Source: Sphingomonas sanguinis
Lineage (GTDB): Bacteria; Pseudomonadota; Alphaproteobacteria; Sphingomonadales; Sphingomonadaceae
Direction: 5' to 3'
NCBI RefSeq assembly: GCF_019297835.1
Contig: NZ_CP079203.1
Span: 3,290,001-3,354,000 of the forward strand
Length of the DNA stretch: 64,000 nucleotides
Made by a program: the position numbers and the translations under genes
Shown here: positions 24,334-62,574 of the stretch, one piece after another
Numbering within the stretch: the first letter of the stretch is position 1
How the letters are laid out: each line of letters opens with the position of its first letter
Notes under the pieces: generated by a model
Database searches by the model: none
Told to the model about the DNA's origin: nothing
The model's input: the letters and a program-made list of their open reading frames with translations, nothing else

Positions 24334-24519
24334 ATGTCGCGTGATGCCATCTTCTTCCGCAACCAGGCCGAAATCGAACGCAACAACGCCGCCGATGCGA
24401 CATTGCAGAATGTCCGCGACCGTTGCGAGCGTGCCGCCGCTTCCTGGGACGCCATGGCCGTCCGGGCCGAGCGCGCGGAACTGGGACGCGCCGCCGCCGC
24501 GGCCCGCTCGGCGCTATAG
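24334..24519 (+). CDS. Small helical protein of unknown function
   Basis: Encodes 61 residues, preceded by AAAGGA. It is rich in Ala, Arg and Glu (RNQAEIERNNAADATLQNVR, RCERAAASWDAMA) and probably forms a helical hairpin. It lies 20 bp after the cold-shock terminator, so it may be read by leak-through. The end overlaps the converging MipA-like gene by six bases. I do not recognise a named family. Confidence 0.65.
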   Translation: MSRDAIFFRNQAEIERNNAADATLQNVRDRCERAAASWDAMAVRAERAELGRAAAAARSAL

Positions 24520-25362
24520 GCCGAAGCGAAACCCGTAACCCAGCCCCAGCGTCGTCTGCAGCCGCTGCCCCCGCTGACGGATCAGCGGAGAATCGGCGGC
24601 CGGGCCGCCCAGCCGCTCCAGGCTGGTGAACAGCGTCAGCGCGCTGCGCCGGTTCAGCGGGCGAACGACATTGCCGCCCAGGCCATAGGACAGCACCCCG
24701 CCATCCGCGCGATAGGGCGTCAAGCCGGTGCGCGCCGATTGCGCTGCCGAAATACCGAAATAGGTCTGCATGAAAGTCGCGCTGGCCAGCGTCATGCGCG
24801 GCCCCGCACTGACGATCGCACGGCCGATCCGGGTGCGATAGGCCGCCGACAGGTCCGCGACCACGCCGTCATGCCCGCCAAAGCCCTGCCGCACCTCTGC
24901 CCGTGCGCGCCACGCCCGGCGCGGGCCGAACGACTTCTCGACGAAGCCGCCGACTTCGCCCGCCGCCTTGATATTGCCCATGCCCTCCAGCGCGTCGCTG
25001 CCGCCGGTGATCAGGAAGGGCGAGCCGCCATTGCGCTCGTTGCGGCCGAAGCGGATCTTCACCAGCGGCCCGCCGCGCCAGCCGTCGCGGCGCACCGCAT
25101 TCCAGCCGATCCCGTCGGGCACCGATGCGAAGAGCGTGTCGCCGTAATTCACCCTCAGGTCGGGAAACAGCGATAGCGCCATGTCGCGCGATCCTTGCCA
25201 AGCCGGGCCAAGGACGGGCGCCGCGCCGATGGTGATGCTCCAGCCACCGGGGGCGGCGGGTGCGCCGGCCGCGACGCCGGGGGGCGGGCCGCTTTGACGC
25301 ACCTCCTGCGCCGCCGCCGGACAGGCGCATAGCGTGGCGATCCCCAAAGCCCAGACACGCAT
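24514..25362 (-). CDS. MipA/OmpV family outer-membrane protein
   Basis: Encodes 282 residues with a signal peptide (residues 1-18, ending CPAAAQ). The mature sequence has repeated amphipathic beta strands, the family-type segment GAAPVLGPAWQGSRD, LFPDLRVNYGDTLFAS, and an aromatic-ended C-terminal strand (LGYGFRFGL). This fits the MipA/OmpV beta-barrels, reported as MltA-interacting scaffold proteins or porins. It is monocistronic on this strand. Confidence 0.85.
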   Translation of the reverse strand: MRVWALGIATLCACPAAAQEVRQSGPPPGVAAGAPAAPGGWSITIGAAPVLGPAWQGSRDMALSLFPDLRVNYGDTLFASVPDGIGWNAVRRDGWRGGPLVKIRFGRNERNGGSPFLITGGSDALEGMGNIKAAGEVGGFVEKSFGPRRAWRARAEVRQGFGGHDGVVADLSAAYRTRIGRAIVSAGPRMTLASATFMQTYFGISAAQSARTGLTPYRADGGVLSYGLGGNVVRPLNRRSALTLFTSLERLGGPAADSPLIRQRGQRLQTTLGLGYGFRFGL

Positions 25363-35878: not shown

Positions 35879-35984
35879 GCGGTTCCCCATGAACCTAAAT
35901 TGGGGCGAGCGAAAGGCATTTGCGTAATGCCGCCGGGCTTCCTATATCCCCGATTGCCGGGTTTCACCCGGCTATGACGATAAA

Positions 35985-36310
35985 CTGCGGCGAGTAATAG
36001 ACGCAGCGGACCCGGGGGCAGTACCCGGCGGCTCCACCATAAAAGGTGGTGTACTTGGACACCGTTTCTGACGGGGCCGAACCAGGATCGACGTGTGTTG
36101 AAAAGCGCTGTTTTCGTTCGGAATGGGACCACCGTAACGGCCCATTACACACAAGTGCCAACGATAACGAAGCACTCGCGATTGCGGCGTAATTGAGGGC
36201 CTCACGGCCTGACATTACACCAAAATAGCGCGGTCGGACCCCACCGGGCAACAGAAGGGGAATCCAGCGGTACGGGGAGCACCGGGCAACAGAAGCTCCC
36301 CACTTTCCTG
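35985..36310 (+). ncRNA. ssrA: Two-piece (permuted) transfer-messenger RNA
   Basis: The acceptor piece comes first and ends in GGCTCCACCA at 36039. After a short intervening segment (36040-36072, removed by processing) the coding piece starts with GGGGCCG at 36073, which pairs over 7 bp with CGGCTCC before the CCA. The tag frame 36157-36192 encodes ANDNEALAIAA then TAA. The T-arm is CCGGG-GGCAGTA-CCCGG, with an unusual loop. This circularly permuted form is characteristic of alphaproteobacteria. tmRNA rescues stalled ribosomes with SmpB. The outer boundaries are approximate. Confidence 0.92.
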
Positions 36311-46004: not shown

Positions 46005-46113
46005 GCTCCCCCTCCCGCAGGCGGGAGGGGGGTGGGGGGGGGGGCATGAGTCTCACCGAGACCAACGCTTGTGGCCTTGCCCTCCCCCGGCCCCTCCCGC
46101 TTGCGGGAGGGGA
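46005..46113. repeat. Intergenic repeat family B, copy 3
   Basis: The arms CCCCTCCCGCAGGCGGGAGG and CCCCTCCCGCTTGCGGGAGG are both self-complementary hairpins, with the middle block GTCTCACCGAGACCAACGC. This is the cleanest uninterrupted copy and shows what the insertion site in copies 4 and 6 looks like when empty. Confidence 0.85.
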
Positions 46114-53367: not shown

Positions 53368-55142
53368 CGCACGGCACTCCATGGTTTACTCAGCAGGACG
53401 GCGCAGTTGATCAGGCCGACCAGCGAATAGGTTTGCGGATAATTCCCCCACAGCTCGCCCGTATTCGGGTCGATATCCTCGGACAGAAGCCCGGCGGGGG
53501 TGCAGCGCGCCACCATCTCCTCGAACAGCGCGCGGGCGTCCTCATGACGCCCGGTGACATACAACGCTTCGATCAGCCAAAAAGTGCAGACATTGAAGGC
53601 GGTATGCGGCAGGCCGAAGTCATCCTCGGTCGCATAGCGCAGCATGTGGCTGCCCCGGCGTAGTCCCTTTTCGACCGCATCCAGCGTCGAGCGGAAGCGG
53701 GGATCGTCGGGCGACAGGAAGCGCAGGTCGAGCAGCTGGATGATGCTGGCGTCCAGATCGTCGCCGCCGAAGGTCGCCGACATGCGCTGCGTTTCCTCGC
53801 GCCACGCCGATTGCTCGATCGTCTCGCGCATCAGGTCAGCCCGCTCCTGCCAGAAGGCGCGGCGTTCCTCCAGGCCCAGCGCCTGCGCGGCGTTGGCGAG
53901 GCGGTCGCACGCCGCCCAGCACATGGCGGCGGAATAGGTATGGACGTGGCTCTTGGTGCGCAGTTCCCACAGCCCCGCGTCCGGCTGGTCGTATTTGGCC
54001 CAGGCCCGTTCGCCGACGCGCTCCAGCGAGTGGAAGTCCTCGACGCCCGACATGCGGAACAGGCGGGTGTCGAAGAACGCCTGCACGTCGGACAGCACGA
54101 TCTGGCCGTACGCATCGTGCTGGATCTGCTCATAGGCCTGGTTGCCGATGCGCACCGGTCCCATCGCGCGATAGCCGGGGAGCTTGGTCTCGATCCGCTC
54201 GACCAGGGTCGCTTCGCCACCGACGCCGTAAAGCGGCTGGATATGTCCGCCGCGCGCGGCATCGACGATATTGCGGAGATATTCCAGATACCCCTCCAGC
54301 ACGTCTAGCGCACCCAATCGGTTGAGCGCCTGTACCGTGTAATAGGCGTCGCGAATCCAGCAGTAGCGATAGTCCCAGTTGCGCCCCGAATCGGCATGTT
54401 CGGGCAGCGAGGTCGTCAGCGCGGCGACGATCGCGCCGGTTTCCTCATGCTGGCACAGCTTCAGCGTGATCGCGGCGCGGATGACCACCGCCTGCCACTC
54501 GACGGGGGTGGCGAGACCGCGCACCCAGTGATGCCATTCATGGGTGGTGCGCTCCAGCATGGCGCGGCTCGCCTCGCTGAGCACGCCTGCAAAGCTCTCG
54601 TCCGGGCCGAGGAACATGTGGATCGGGCGTTCGAGGCGGAACCATTGTTCGGCGGCGATATGGCCGACCGGTGCGTCGGTGGTCAGGCGCAGCGTCTGCT
54701 GGGTCATCAGATAGCGGATATGGTTGGACCCCTGGGTCCGCTCGGTCGGATTGCCCCAGTCGGTGGCCACGCGGAGCGCGATGCGAATACGCGGAGAGCC
54801 GATCGGCCGGACGATCCGCACATAGCTGGTCGGGCGGTAGACGCGGCCCTCACGCGAGAAGCGCGGGCAGAAATCGGTGATCTCGATGCCGTTGCCCCGG
54901 TCGTCCATATGCGTGGTGACCAGGATCGGCGTGTTGCGCAGATAGCCTTGCGTGGTCGAGACCCGGTCCTCCAGGTCGATCGCCCAATAGCCGGTCTCCG
55001 GCTCGCCATCGCCGAGCAATGCGCAAAAGGCCGGGTCGCCATCGACGCGCGGCACACAGCCCCAGACGAAGCGGCCTGCCGAATCGACCAGCGCGGAAAC
55101 CTGGCAATTGCCGATCGGCCAGAGGTTCATGTCCTGTTGCAT
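53364..55142 (-). CDS. Glycoside hydrolase family 15 protein (glucoamylase/trehalase type)
   Basis: Encodes 592 residues from the ATG at 55142, sharing a base with the otsB stop (TAATG). The GH15 features are an N-terminal beta domain (PIGNCQVSALVDSAGRFVWG), the (alpha/alpha)6 barrel beginning RNWDYRYCWIRDAYYTVQAL with a catalytic-type acid, and LLSEDIDPNTGELWGNYPQ near the end. Bacterial GH15 members of this form include trehalases as well as glucoamylases. Sitting between otsB and otsA, it may cleave trehalose, tuning its level; the substrate remains inferred. Confidence 0.9.
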   Translation of the reverse strand: MQQDMNLWPIGNCQVSALVDSAGRFVWGCVPRVDGDPAFCALLGDGEPETGYWAIDLEDRVSTTQGYLRNTPILVTTHMDDRGNGIEITDFCPRFSREGRVYRPTSYVRIVRPIGSPRIRIALRVATDWGNPTERTQGSNHIRYLMTQQTLRLTTDAPVGHIAAEQWFRLERPIHMFLGPDESFAGVLSEASRAMLERTTHEWHHWVRGLATPVEWQAVVIRAAITLKLCQHEETGAIVAALTTSLPEHADSGRNWDYRYCWIRDAYYTVQALNRLGALDVLEGYLEYLRNIVDAARGGHIQPLYGVGGEATLVERIETKLPGYRAMGPVRIGNQAYEQIQHDAYGQIVLSDVQAFFDTRLFRMSGVEDFHSLERVGERAWAKYDQPDAGLWELRTKSHVHTYSAAMCWAACDRLANAAQALGLEERRAFWQERADLMRETIEQSAWREETQRMSATFGGDDLDASIIQLLDLRFLSPDDPRFRSTLDAVEKGLRRGSHMLRYATEDDFGLPHTAFNVCTFWLIEALYVTGRHEDARALFEEMVARCTPAGLLSEDIDPNTGELWGNYPQTYSLVGLINCAVLLSKPWSAVR

Positions 55143-55915
55143 TACTTGGCATTCTCCAGCGCTTGGGCGAGCCATATATGGACGGCGGCGACATCGGGCA
55201 GGCGGTAACGGGCGGCGGTCTGACGCATCGGGCCGACCAGCACACCCGCGCCGCCCAGCGCGGCGGCGGCGGCGAAGCCGTCCTCGTCGGTCACGTCGTC
55301 GCCGAAGAAGATCGGGACCGTGCCCTGCATCGCGGGGGCCTGCATCAGCGTCTCGATCGCCCGGCCTTTGTCGCCGGGCAGGCGGATCTCGACCATCATC
55401 TTGCCGGGTTGCAAGGTCAGGCCGTGACGCTCGGCGATGGCGGTGGCTTCGCGGATCGCGAGCGGTTCGGCTTGCGGATTGCGGCGATAATGGAGGCCCG
55501 CACCGAAGCTCTTGGTTTCGAAATACAGGTCGTTGGCCTCGGCGACGGCGCGCATTTCGTCGGTCGCGGTGGCAAGATGGTCGGGCTTGTCGGGCTGGAC
55601 ATGGCCGTCCTCCGGCGAGCGGCGTTCGGCGCCGTGACTCCCAGCGAGGGTGAAATGCTCGGCTTGGGGGCCGAACAGCGCGTCGAGCTGTGCGATCGAA
55701 CGGCCGCTGACGATGGCGAGACGGCCCGGCATATGTGCGGCCAGCGCGTCCAGCCGGTCGGCGAGCTCGGTGCTGACATGCACCCCCTCCGGGTTGTCGG
55801 CGAGGTCGACCAGCGTGCCGTCGAAGTCGAGGAACAGGCTGTCGGTGGCGGACAGGCGGGGCGGGGGCGGGGCAAGGTCGGCCAGCATGGGCGAAAGCAT
55901 AGCGGATGCGGACAT
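55142..55915 (-). CDS. otsB: Trehalose-6-phosphate phosphatase
   Basis: Encodes about 257 residues. The HAD catalytic motif is FLDFDGTLVDLA; motif II is IVSGRS; the acidic motif is FFGDDVTDEDGF. It removes phosphate from trehalose-6-phosphate. Candidate starts are ATG 55930, 55915 and 55888; 55915 is chosen as having the best-spaced purine-rich stretch, with low certainty. It heads the trehalose operon. Confidence 0.94.
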   Translation of the reverse strand: MSASAMLSPMLADLAPPPPRLSATDSLFLDFDGTLVDLADNPEGVHVSTELADRLDALAAHMPGRLAIVSGRSIAQLDALFGPQAEHFTLAGSHGAERRSPEDGHVQPDKPDHLATATDEMRAVAEANDLYFETKSFGAGLHYRRNPQAEPLAIREATAIAERHGLTLQPGKMMVEIRLPGDKGRAIETLMQAPAMQGTVPIFFGDDVTDEDGFAAAAALGGAGVLVGPMRQTAARYRLPDVAAVHIWLAQALENAK

Positions 55916-56023
55916 GCCAAGTGAACCCATCCCCGCCGCTGGCGTTCCGCTGCGCTGCCGAAATGATTACGGAAGGGGGGGCGCCGGGAGAACAAGCAGG
56001 TTCCATCGCTGGAGTCTGGGCGC

Positions 56024-56187
56024 ACCCCCTCCCGCAAGCGGGAGGGGGATGGGGGAGGGGCCTTTCCACGGGCGACGTCGCTTGTGGCTTTTCCCTCCCC
56101 CGGCCCAGTTTCAGGTAAACGATGCCCCGCATCGTTTAGGTCATGCCGGGGGCATGACCGACCTGAAACTCGCTTGCGGGAGGGGAG
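56024..56187. repeat. Intergenic repeat family B, copy 4, interrupted by the 64-bp module
   Basis: The left hairpin ACCCCCTCCCGCAAGCGGGA, a middle block ending in TCGCTTGTGGC, and the right hairpin CGCTTGCGGGAGGGG. Compared with copy 3, the right arm is split by the module at 56107-56170. Confidence 0.82.
56107..56170 (+). repeat. 64-bp double-hairpin module, copy 1
   Basis: The terminal inverted repeats AGTTTCAGGT and ACCTGAAACT are perfect 10-bp arms. Inside are two perfect hairpins side by side: AAACGATG/CATCGTTT (56117-56124 with 56130-56137) and GGTCATGCC/GGCATGACC (56139-56147 with 56151-56159). One unpaired base separates them and one follows. The folded single strand would be a three-way junction. 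All 64 bases equal the reverse complement of 62424-62487. Confidence 0.93.
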
Positions 56188-56405: not shown

Positions 56406-58214
56406 TTAGTACACCCGCTTCTTCGGCTTGATATACTCGATATCGTCGGTCAGCGTGTAATCATGCACCGGGCGATAGTCGATCTCGACCCCGCCGCCCT
56501 GGCCGCCCCATCCGTCGAAGGTCGCGACGGTGTGCTTCATCCAGTTGGCGTCGTCGCGATCGGGGAAGTCCTCGTTCACATGCGCGCCGCGGCTTTCCTT
56601 GCGGTTCAGCGCCGATTCCATCGTCACGACCGCCTGGCTGATCAGATTGTCCAGCTCCAGCGTCTCGACCAGATCGGTGTTCCAGATCAGCGAGCGATCC
56701 TTGATGCCGATGTCCTTCATCCGGTCATAGGTGGCGCGGATCATCTGGCGGCCTTCGGTCAGCAGCTCGTCGGTACGGAACACGGCGCAGTGGCGCTGCA
56801 TCGTCTTCTGCATCTCGCTGCGCACCGAGGCGGTGGTCGAGCTGCCGGCGGCGTTGCGGAAGTGGTCCAGGCGGCCCAGCGCCAGCTCTTCCGAACCGGC
56901 GGGCAGCGGCGCATGCGGCGTGCCGGGCTTCAGCGTGTCCTTGATGCGCAGGCCGGTCGCACGGCCGAACACGACGAGGTCGATCAGCGAGTTGGAGCCC
57001 AGGCGGTTCGCGCCGTGCACCGATACGCAGGCCGCTTCGCCGACCGCGAACAGGCCGGGGACGACCGAATCCGGGTTGCCGTCCTTCAGGCGGACGACTT
57101 CGCCGTGATAGTTGGTCGGAATGCCGCCCATATTATAGTGGACGGTCGGCGTGACGGGCAGCGGCTGGCGGGTCAGGTCGACACCGGCGAAGATCTTGCC
57201 GGTCTCGGTGATGCCGGGCAGGCGCTCGGCCAGGACCTTCGGGTCGATATGATCGAGATGGAGGTAGATATGATCCCCCTCCTTGCCGACGCCGCGCCCT
57301 TCGCGGATTTCCATCGCCATCGAACGCGACACGACGTCGCGGCTGGCGAGATCCTTGGCCGACGGCGCATAGCGCTCCATGAAGCGCTCGCCCTCGGAGT
57401 TGGTCAGGTAGCCGCCTTCGCCACGCGCACCCTCGGTGATGAGGACGCCCGCGCCGTAGATGCCGGTCGGGTGGAACTGCACGAACTCCATGTCCTGGAG
57501 CGGCAGGCCTGCGCGCAGCACCATGCCGCCGCCGTCACCCGTGCAGGTGTGCGCCGAGGTGGCCGAGAAATAGCAGCGGCCATAGCCGCCGGTCGCCAGC
57601 ACGACGTTATGCGCGCGGAACCGGTGGATCGAGCCGTCTTCCATGCACAGCGCGATGACGCCGCGGCAATTGCCCTGATCGTCCATGATCAGGTCGAGCG
57701 CGAAATATTCGATGAAGAAGTCCGCGTCATACTTCAGCGACTGCTGGTACAGCGCGTGCAGCATGGCGTGGCCGGTACGGTCGGCGGCGGCGCAGGTGCG
57801 CTGCGCAGGCGGACCCTCGCCCATATTCTGCATCATGCCGCCGAAGGGGCGCTGATAGATCTTGCCCTCTTCGGTGCGGCTGAACGGCACGCCCGCATGC
57901 TCCAGCTCGTACACGGCGGCGGGCGCCTCGCGGCACAGATATTCGATCGCGTCCTGGTCGCCCAGCCAGTCCGACCCCTTGACGGTGTCGTACATGTGCC
58001 AGGTCCAGTGGTCCGGACCCATGTTGCCCAGCGAGGCGGCGATGCCGCCCTGCGCGGCAACGGTATGGCTGCGCGTCGGGAACACCTTGGTGATGCAGGC
58101 GGTCTTCAGACCCGCCTCGGCGATACCCATGGTGGCGCGCAGGCCCGAGCCGCCCGCACCCACGACGACGGCGTCATAGGTGTGGTCGATGATCTTGTAG
58201 GCGGCAGCGGACAT
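56406..58214 (-). CDS. sdhA: Succinate dehydrogenase flavoprotein subunit
   Basis: Encodes 602 residues from the ATG at 58214, which overlaps sdhD by ATGA. The FAD-binding N-terminus is [15 protein letters not shown]. The covalent-flavin His is in [14 protein letters not shown]. Active-site segments [20 protein letters not shown] and [17 protein letters not shown] are intact. It oxidises succinate in complex II. Downstream is a terminator rather than sdhB. Confidence 0.98.
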
Positions 58215-58597
58215 CAGGCAGCGGCTCCGAAGGCGATCTTGAGGATCGAGAAGATGGCGACGGCGGCGATCGTGAAGACGAACAGGTTCATGACGACGAG
58301 CATCGCGACCCGGTTCTGGTCCTGCTCGTAATCCTCGATCACGACCTGGAGGCCGAGGCGCATGTGATAGAAGACCGAGGCGACCAGCATCACCATCGGG
58401 ATGGCGGCCCAGGGATTGGCCAGCCACAGCCGCATCGCGGCATAGTCGTAGGAAGGCTGACGCAGGATCGAGATCAGCAGCCAGACGACCAGCAGGAAGT
58501 TCGATCCCGCCGTCAGGCGCTGGTTCAGCCAGTGATGGGTGCCCGACTTGGCCGAGCCCAGGCCGCGCACGCGGCCGATCGCGGTTCCGGAACGCAT
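58214..58597 (-). CDS. sdhD: Succinate dehydrogenase membrane anchor SdhD
   Basis: Encodes 127 residues with three transmembrane helices (about 34-46, 62-80 and 98-121). The pattern [21 protein letters not shown] and the haem/quinone-side [13 protein letters not shown] are typical. It starts ATG at 58597, overlapping the sdhC stop. Confidence 0.93.
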
Positions 58598-60779: not shown

Positions 60780-61475
60780 ATGACGACGATATTGGTAACG
60801 GGCAGCAGCCGAGGCATCGGCGCAGCCATCGCATCGAGCCTGGGCGACCTGCCCGACACGCGGGTCCTGGGCCATGCCACACGCACCGGCATCGCGACGG
60901 ACCTGTCGGAGGAGGGCGCCGCCGCGCGGCTCTGGGCCGCCGCGCTGGCCGAAGCGGGCGGCGCGATCGACATCCTTGTCAACAATGCCGGGATTTTCGA
61001 GGCCAGCCCGCTCGACGCCGATGACTGGTCGGACAGCTGGGCGCGGACCATGCAGATCAACCTGACCGCCTCGGCCGAGCTGTGCCGCCTGGCCGTGCTG
61101 CACTGGCAGGGGCGGGGCGTCGGGGGCCGCATCGTCAACATCGCCAGTCGCGCCGCCTATCGCGGCGACTCGCCCGCCCACTGGCATTATGCCGCGTCCA
61201 AGGGCGGTATGGTCGCGATGACCAAGACCATCGCGCGGGGCTATGCCGCGCAAGGAATCCTGGCCTTCGCCGTTTGCCCCGGCTTCACCATGACCGGCAT
61301 GGCGGACGATTATCTGGCCAGCCGGGGCGGCGACAAGCTGCTCGCCGACATTCCGCTGGGCCGGGTCGCCAGCCCTGAGGAAGTCGCCACAACCGTCCGT
61401 TTCCTGTGCATCGACGCACCCCCTTCGATGACCGGCGCGGTCCTCGACTTGAATGGAGCCAGCTATGTCCGCTGA
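60780..61475 (+). CDS. Short-chain dehydrogenase/reductase
   Basis: Encodes 231 residues. The cofactor motif TGSSRGIGAAIA is at the N-terminus; NNAG, the NIAS catalytic Ser region and YAASK (Tyr and Lys) are intact. The Rossmann-fold enzyme uses NAD(P)H; FabG-like paralogues are common and the substrate cannot be told. It overlaps prmA by 11 bp and is probably co-transcribed with it. Confidence 0.92.
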   Translation: MTTILVTGSSRGIGAAIASSLGDLPDTRVLGHATRTGIATDLSEEGAAARLWAAALAEAGGAIDILVNNAGIFEASPLDADDWSDSWARTMQINLTASAELCRLAVLHWQGRGVGGRIVNIASRAAYRGDSPAHWHYAASKGGMVAMTKTIARGYAAQGILAFAVCPGFTMTGMADDYLASRGGDKLLADIPLGRVASPEEVATTVRFLCIDAPPSMTGAVLDLNGASYVR

Positions 61476-62397
61476 CAGCTGGAAGCTGACCCTGCCCTGC
61501 ACCCGCGACGAGGCGGAGGCGATCGACGCCGCCGACGACCTGGCGATCGAGGCGGTTATCATGACCACCGAGGAGGTGGAGGACGATCGCGAGCATTGGC
61601 GACTCGACGCCTATTTCGAGGCCGAGCCAGATGCCGCCACCATCGAAGCGATCCGCGCGCTGGTGCCGAGCGCGGGCGACCATCCCGCCACGGTCGAGCA
61701 TCTGGCGGCGCAGGACTGGGTGACGATGAGCCAGGCGGGGCTGGCGCCGCTCTCGGTCGGGCGCTTCTTCGTCCACACCGGCGACGAGGCGGTGCCGGAG
61801 GGCTTGCGCGGTTTCCATATCCCGGCGGGCCGGGCATTCGGCACCGGGCATCACGAGACCACCAGCGGTTGCCTCGCGATGCTCGACGGGATGGCTTCGC
61901 AGACGGTTGGGAACGCCATCGATGTCGGCACCGGCACCGGCCTGCTCGCCTTTGCGGCGCGGCATCTCTGGCCCGAGGCCAAGGTCGTCGCGACCGATAT
62001 CGACCCCATCGCGATCGACGTGACCGCCGAGAATGCGGCGATCAACGGCGTGGACGGCGTCGAGCTGATCGTCGCCGATGGGGCGCTGGCCGACCCGATC
62101 ATGGCGGGCGCGCCCTATGATCTGGTCATTGCCAATATCCTGGCCGGTCCGCTGATCTCCATGGCGCCCGAACTGGCGGCGATCGCGGGATCGGGGGCGA
62201 CTCTGGTGCTGGCGGGCCTGCTGGAGACGCAGCGCGCCGATGTGGTCGCCGCCTATGAGGCGTGCGGTTGTGCGCTGGAGACGGTCGACCGGCGCGGCGA
62301 CTGGAGCGTGTTGCGGTTGCGGGCGGGAGCGGAGCGATTCGTGCCGAACGCGCCTTTCGATCCCAAGGGGCGGAACGGCTGGGCGTTGGATATCTGA
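61465..62397 (+). CDS. prmA: Ribosomal protein L11 methyltransferase
   Basis: Encodes 310 residues from the ATG at 61465, preceded by GGAG and overlapping the SDR gene. The family segment FGTGHHETTSGCLAML, motif I IDVGTGTGLLAFAA, TDIDPIAIDVTAENAAIN and the NILAGPL catalytic loop are all present. It trimethylates Lys and the N-terminus of L11, the product of rplK at 16952. The N-terminal substrate-recognition domain is as usual. Confidence 0.95.
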   Translation: MSADSWKLTLPCTRDEAEAIDAADDLAIEAVIMTTEEVEDDREHWRLDAYFEAEPDAATIEAIRALVPSAGDHPATVEHLAAQDWVTMSQAGLAPLSVGRFFVHTGDEAVPEGLRGFHIPAGRAFGTGHHETTSGCLAMLDGMASQTVGNAIDVGTGTGLLAFAARHLWPEAKVVATDIDPIAIDVTAENAAINGVDGVELIVADGALADPIMAGAPYDLVIANILAGPLISMAPELAAIAGSGATLVLAGLLETQRADVVAAYEACGCALETVDRRGDWSVLRLRAGAERFVPNAPFDPKGRNGWALDI

Positions 62398-62406
62398 CCT
62401 TCTTTA

Positions 62407-62574
62407 CTCCCCTCCCGCAGGCGAGTTTCAGGTCGGTCATGCCCCCGGCATGACCTAAACGATGCGGGGCATCGTTTACCTGAAACTGGGCTGGGGGAGG
62501 GCAAGGCCACGAGCGATGGTCTCGGTGAGACTCCCAACCCTCCCCCCAACCCCCTCCCGCCTGCGGGAGGGGGA
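62407..62574. repeat. Intergenic repeat family B, copy 6 (reverse orientation), interrupted by the 64-bp module
   Basis: The left arm CCCCTCCCGCAGGCG is broken by the module at 62424-62487. Then GGGCTGGGGGAGGGCAAGG, the block GCGATGGTCTCGGTGAGAC (reverse of copies 2 and 3) and the right hairpin CCCCTCCCGCCTGCGGGAGG follow. It fills the gap between prmA and the carboxylase gene. Confidence 0.85.
62424..62487 (-). repeat. 64-bp double-hairpin module, copy 2
   Basis: Identical over all 64 bases to the reverse complement of copy 1 at 56107-56170. It has the same perfect terminal arms AGTTTCAGGT/ACCTGAAACT and two inner hairpins. Confidence 0.93.

Follow-up and report, generated by a model that had tools for sequence, protein, structure and literature searches.

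Within a 64,000-bp stretch of the Sphingomonas sanguinis genome, analyzed as a whole and referred to below as the window, two identical 64-bp units lie in opposite orientations, each interrupting a palindromic host repeat. This locus raises the question of what kind of unit this is, how it entered the repeats, and what, if anything, moves it. The features relevant to that question are listed here with their positions and strands.

56024..56186, no strand: host of copy 1, an inverted REP pair, REPIN-like, limits approximate; copy 1 replaces CTCC in the right-hand REP
56107..56170, + strand: element copy 1 (64 bp), P2-first orientation
56107..56116, + strand: P1 stem, 5' arm, AGTTTCAGGT, partner of 56161-56170
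56117..56137, + strand: P2 hairpin, 9 bp, loop CCC
56139..56159, + strand: P3 hairpin, 9 bp, loop GGG, the stem with the least variation
56161..56170, + strand: P1 stem, 3' arm, ACCTGAAACT
62408..62573, no strand: host REP pair of copy 2, limits approximate; copy 2 replaces GGAG in the left-hand REP
62424..62487, − strand: element copy 2 (64 bp), reverse complement of and identical to copy 1
46094..46097, + strand: CTCC, the 4 bp kept in the empty repeat of the window
55142..55930, − strand: trehalose-phosphatase family gene (Pfam PF02358), adjoining copy 1
56406..58427, − strand: FAD-binding flavoprotein of the succinate dehydrogenase/fumarate reductase type (Pfam PF00890, PF02910), adjoining copy 1
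61453..62397, + strand: ribosomal protein L11 methyltransferase gene (Pfam PF06325), adjoining copy 2

The identity of 56107-56170 with the reverse complement of 62424-62487, reported in an earlier sequence-only reading of this DNA, holds at 64/64 positions. The flanks of the two copies are REP sequence, similar and non-identical, with 13 of 14 adjacent bases agreeing on one side. Copy 1 is located past the 3' end of the flavoprotein gene at 56406..58427, and copy 2 starts 26 bp past the stop of the L11 methyltransferase gene. The terminal arms of 10 bp given in that reading stand; of the inner hairpins, described as 8 and 9 bp, the first has 9 bp as well (AAACGATGC/GCATCGTTT, loop CCC). The unit can thus be folded into a three-way junction in the shape of a T, with P1 of 10 bp and P2 and P3 of 9 bp each, and with single-base joints between the helices that read A, then G, on the P2-first strand. 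Its geometry resembles that of a T-shaped hairpin end. All 28 pairs of P1, P2 and P3 in copy 1 are Watson-Crick, and when every 64-mer of the window's + strand was scanned for the same 28-pair geometry (copy 2, in the reverse layout, is unscored there), every other 64-mer reached 19 pairs or fewer. Folded as DNA, the complement of copy 1 reaches an energy z-score of -8.9, none of 200 shuffles matching its stability, and copy 1 with its flanks, folded as RNA, lies 7.8 s.d. beyond shuffles in stability.

Where the 64 bp sit at the fetched loci, comparison of the flanks with empty repeats finds 4 bp gone. As a rule, the 64 bp take the place of exactly 4 bp of the host repeat, usually GGAG/CTCC. 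This replacement is a new fact, unforeseen in the sequence-only reading, which had given the empty copy in the window only a few bases at this point; these can now be specified as exactly CTCC (46094-46097). A collection of 3125 raw hits was reduced to 204 rows, then to 184 unique rows and 169 canonical copies, with hits containing N, duplicates and reverse-register rows dropped; these 169 are not mutually independent, as many come from related genomes, and the fixed-length scan misses copies with an indel, such as L009. A strict test, demanding an exact match of 11+11 flanking bases elsewhere, could be applied to 66 of the 169. A 4-base gap is among the gaps in 61 of these (4 only in 51, 4 or 5 in 8, 3 or 4 in 2), and the five copies without any such gap show 5 only (four copies) or 9 only (one). 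When up to two mismatches per flank are allowed, 165 copies are resolved and 4 are not; the modal gap is 4 in 114 of the 165, and another value in 51, many of which reflect weak or ambiguous flank matches.

Read on the P2-first strand, the tetranucleotide in those 114 copies is CTCC in 60, GGAG in 16, CTCT in 9, CTTC in 8, CGCT in 7, AGAG in 6 and others in 8. Tetranucleotides thus come from either strand (84 CTCC/CTCT/CTTC/CGCT versus 23 GGAG/AGAG/GAAG), indicating insertion in both orientations. The hosts include REP hairpins of several loop types, CCCTCTCCC/GGGAGAGGG hairpins, in which either arm may be used, and a GGCACCGGCC...CCCCCACCCGGC repeat, so that the filled copies occupy several non-homologous host positions. 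REP type II has only 4 bp (31 cases) or 64 bp (17 cases) at its GGAG site. At the corresponding site of REP type I, where the gap count is ambiguous because of a G-run and matches running into the next REP were set aside, there are 3-5 bases, members of the element family of 63-65, or one derivative lacking P3. No other type of insert of up to 160 bases was found at the GGAG site of either type, and the length of the element is nearly constant.

Presence and absence of the unit at orthologous sites point to mobility. At site 2, the window reads CAGGCG-[64]-GGG, while the same repeat in the relative G122 reads CAGGCG-GGAG-GGG (locus L209, CAGGCG-GGAG-GGGTTGGGGGAGGG). At site 1, the relative G134 (L216) is empty, with CAGCCC-CTCC-CGCTTGCGG, and shares the unique downstream flank with the window; in the same region, different REPs are filled in G141, G282, G140 and G248. 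Site 2 is also empty in G264 and G282 and filled in G134 and G293. On a tree of the relatives, itself weakly supported, filled and empty states lie scattered, which would fit repeated gain, loss through conversion or a mixture of the two. Dispersal and the 4-bp rule are well supported by these comparisons. The explanation we prefer, with a probability of roughly 55%, is that the unit is a non-autonomous mobile DNA element, recognized as a folded strand and moved by a putative enzyme acting in trans.

It may instead be that the spread is passive, with rare founding insertions, copying of the filled state between REPs by gene conversion, template switching that keeps the stems perfect, and no dedicated enzyme today. 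The scattered states of site 2 would fit such a history, as would stem sequences that are typical of clades: the commonest P1, AGTTTCAGGT, accounts for 27 of the 184 unique rows and predominates in the window's own genome. Template switching is reported to be able to create and maintain hairpins (PMC8794818), and REP hairpins carry the same matched changes as the element (below). Conversion is harder to reconcile with the flanks. Their variants start 3-5 bases from the element, which leaves little homology for conversion, and on either side they correspond to different REP subtypes. In a set comprising the window and 37 stretches of its own genome (68 empty REPs with tail, 9 filled copies), left and right flank subtypes are linked in the empty REPs. 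Five of the nine filled copies have a left/right combination exactly as in an empty REP, which favors separate insertions over copying of one filled unit; the remaining four have no such counterpart. Two more copies in this genome (L263 and L264) have a different repeat as host. As the 4-bp rule is also common to different repeat types and to both orientations, we consider passive spread rather unlikely. The window's own genome has 104 exact CTCCCGCNNGCGGGAG palindromes. Among those listed for the 4.28-Mb contig C1 (to 2.83 Mb), the first is at 995,878, and none falls in the first megabase.

The search of this and related genomes that the sequence-only reading had proposed finds many further copies, and these occupy varied host positions and flank combinations rather than one duplicated segment. 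The window's own genome has 10 copies by BLAST and 13 matches by a covariance model, R1, built from 36 BLAST-gathered copies. BLAST finds matches in 12 of 41 genomes in the set of relatives, and R1 in 217 of 295 genomes of the genus. Matches per genome within the genus range from 0 to at least 17 (17 candidates were scored per genome, and in some genomes one place is counted on both strands). Beyond the genus, a draw from the order gives 59 positives among 396 genomes, all 59 in the window's own family and spread over 10 of 84 genera, with 3 of the 59 positive only at E >1e-4. A draw from the class, which overlaps that from the order, gives 3 positives among 289: the genome of the window, a congener and a single distant genome, the sole match outside the family, whose E of 1.4e-4 is as weak as the weakest match within it. 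Exact P3 matches occur in at least 120 stretches of named genomes, and the 80 listed are mostly from Sphingomonas, with a few from Sphingobium and one from Sphingopyxis. In a plasmid collection, 8 records have matches, all from Sphingomonas parapaucimobilis, and one of these matches sits under an annotated cysteine desulfurase gene. Five stretches of viral contigs have a match, and a phage collection has none. At one locus (L218, G141:C203), the contig terminates precisely where a copy of the element ends; repeats of this kind can interrupt an assembly, and draft genomes may therefore undercount the copies.

The stems vary, and they vary in concert. In an alignment of 36 sequences, 97.1% of cells pair, compared with 27-39% in slid controls, and 159 cells are doubly changed, compared with 43.6 in shuffles. 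The 139 distinct cores contain 620 double changes versus 29 G-T, 48 A-C and 41 other mismatches, in a set where the choice of 120 stretches by the exact P3 pattern and the scan threshold of 22 of 28 pairs favor perfect stems and constant loops. Compensatory changes in both inner stems, which the sequence-only reading had suggested looking for, are thus present in the alignment and in the cores, and every stem (P1, P2 and P3) varies by matched double changes; the outer seven pairs of P1 are variable in the 139 cores, mostly in this manner. Nearest neighbors one event apart (n=53) differ by a matched pair in 34 cases, a single stem change in 18 and a loop or joint in 1, and 10 of the 34 matched pairs are of the transversion type, for which there is no route through G-U.

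Other positions hardly vary. The alignment gathered by BLAST shows at least 90% constancy in the two loops, the two joints, the inner bases of P1 and some parts of P2 and P3, so that invariant columns occur within the P2 and P3 stems as well as in the loops and at the junction. The ends of the element carry no GTAG or GGAG, and a conserved GGT precedes P2. Host REPs provide a control: in 228 of them, 95 double changes and 11 mismatches were counted at the three inner stem pairs. Matched changes alone are therefore no proof of function; they need no special intermediate, and copying from arm to arm may act on any such hairpin. That such changes may reflect arm-to-arm copying rather than RNA function is a warning for other hairpins as well. 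Arm-to-arm copying alone leaves the constant loops and joints unexplained.

The 4-bp loss could also be produced by RNA-templated insertion, in which a folded 64-nt RNA is copied by target-primed reverse transcription at two nicks 4 bp apart, deleting the bases between them. A small target deletion of fixed size would be expected from two offset nicks in target-primed insertion, and RNA intermediates have reportedly been proposed for small Nostoc repeats. However, wobble pairs are not favored on the P2-first strand (29 G-T versus 48 A-C cells), which speaks for structure at the level of DNA, and the excess on the other strand is only 48 to 29. There is also no clear bias with respect to gene sense: of the 76 tandem contexts, as judged from heuristic gene calls, 31 have the P2-first strand in sense and 45 have it in antisense. 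An RNA template is accordingly an unlikely source of these insertions.

The same gene calls bear on the idea that the unit is mainly a selected RNA or DNA structure of 3' regions, for example a terminator or a site for a protein, with REPs as its carriers. The element is mostly intergenic; the contexts of the 169 copies are tandem in 76, convergent in 41, divergent in 9, overlapping with a called reading frame in 34 and without a neighbor in 9. The excess of convergent over divergent positions and the constant loops and junction bases would suit a selected structure, although REPs themselves may cause that excess. Presence is polymorphic at orthologous sites, however, there is no clear strand bias, and neither copy matches an Rfam family at the gathering threshold, with only sub-threshold hits around copy 1. 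We hold this explanation to be very improbable. Known structured RNAs were considered and rejected, since the five Rfam 15 matches in the window are rRNA, tRNA and tmRNA, none of them on the element, and no tRNA-like identity was found in the 4 loci examined. Elsewhere in the window, ARAGORN calls a tRNA-Tyr with the unusual anticodon ATA at 24464-24550 (−), possibly a mis-call, and a two-piece (permuted) tmRNA gene of the alphaproteobacterial type is present at 35916-36283 (+).

If the unit is a mobile element acted on in trans, as we prefer, then a mover must be sought. The sequence-only reading had proposed a small non-autonomous element moved by a REP-associated (Y1/HUH-like) transposase. 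Its first half, a small element with conserved structure in REP-like repeats, agrees with the present data, and the second is not supported by them: Y1_Tnp (PF01797) has 0 matches in the window's own genome (G000), is present in 2 of 25 genus genomes and has no match in 15 of the 20 high-copy genomes (16-17 matches). Eight Y1 loci of the genus, scanned for perfect hairpins with a stem of 8 or more, have them in 3 cases, and none of these hairpins resembles either the element or a host REP. No deletion of bases is known for insertion of the IS200/IS605 type. A Y1 enzyme since lost from most carriers would account for Y1_Tnp being present in 5 of the 20 high-copy genomes and in none of the 20 zero-match genomes of the chosen set, an association that is weak and possibly due to genome size, in which the two groups differ. 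The replaced tetranucleotide is also reminiscent of the one that serves as a guide at the foot of REPs (PMC6006769). Overall, a Y1 mover seems quite improbable. A version made autonomous by a gene lying between the hairpins was also considered and rejected; among the P3-like matches of the loci scanned for it, the only candidates are 8 without clean P1 and P2, all decayed, length-shifted or truncated.

Comparison with known systems suggests where the element may belong. MITEs have sequence-conserved ends and generate target duplications. Like them, the element is short and non-autonomous with inverted terminal arms; unlike them, its ends covary rather than forming conserved terminal inverted repeats, its target is shortened by 4 bp, and there is no target-site duplication at the two orthologous sites. 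The small dispersed repeats (SDRs) of Nostoc, reportedly described by Elhai et al. in 2008, are 21-27 nt long, show compensatory changes and occur in another phylum, whereas the element is a 64-nt three-way junction. Both are very small and foldable and sit at a fixed position within a second repeat (PMC4390886), and the element shares with SDRs a common structure backed by compensatory changes. REPs and REPINs are non-autonomous units of a hairpin and a tetranucleotide associated with RAYT (TnpA_REP) of the IS200/IS605 superfamily (PMC6006769). The element is likewise short, palindromic and non-autonomous. It differs in being an insert into REP-like hosts, in its variable terminal arms, in the replacement of 4 bp and in that the search of the genome found no Y1 gene, and no repeat of its kind flanks the transposase gene among the perfect hairpins of the 8 Y1 loci. 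A fixed insertion point inside REPs is also known for insertion sequences, including the IS110 family, ISPsy8, ISRm22, ISPpu9 and others; these have a transposase, and ISPsy8 and ISRm22 are described with direct repeats rather than a 4-bp loss (PMC1525189). No recombinase gene of the IS110 type lies within the 64-bp unit, and the scan for inserts reached up to 160 bases. By analogy, then, the element appears to work like the small nested repeats of Nostoc, and it lacks features that were tested for MITEs and for RAYT-moved REPs. A literature search of titles and abstract openings recognized no description of a 64-bp element of this kind.

For the mobile element moved in trans, we infer a folded intermediate and a mechanism of the following form. 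The recognized form would be a folded single strand or an extruded cruciform with a three-way junction. The putative enzyme would bind the constant parts, namely both loops of 3 nt, both single-base joints and the GGT/ACC next to the junction. Insertion would then occur in either orientation at a tetranucleotide (mostly GGAG/CTCC) on the edge of a host palindromic repeat, which would be lost, with 64 nt in its place. In the folded state, a stem mismatch may be copied from arm to arm, a correction that would yield matched double changes and keep the stems perfect. A bolder version, which we entertain only tentatively, is a class of mobile DNA in which the fold, and not the sequence of the ends, is what is inherited: a T-shaped strand of 64 nt would be swapped for a tetranucleotide, have its arms corrected in each cycle and evolve by whole base pairs.

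If this mechanism is right, the element is among the smallest mobile DNA units and a natural case of DNA folding as a recognition signal, and the 4-bp replacement has no recognized match among described transposition chemistries. The range of 0 to at least 17 matches per genome within one genus makes a search for the enzyme tractable by comparison of gene content.

Some loci have unusual arrangements. The site 1 orthologue in L222 (G310) holds a derivative without P3 and the joints, a single long P1+P2 hairpin in a REP. In L220 (G265), the site 1 orthologue has several near-identical REP pairs in tandem, with 997 bp between the anchor genes, which suggests fast tandem amplification. In L033, 63 bp separate two diverged element copies of opposite orientation (1374-1437 and 1501-1564).
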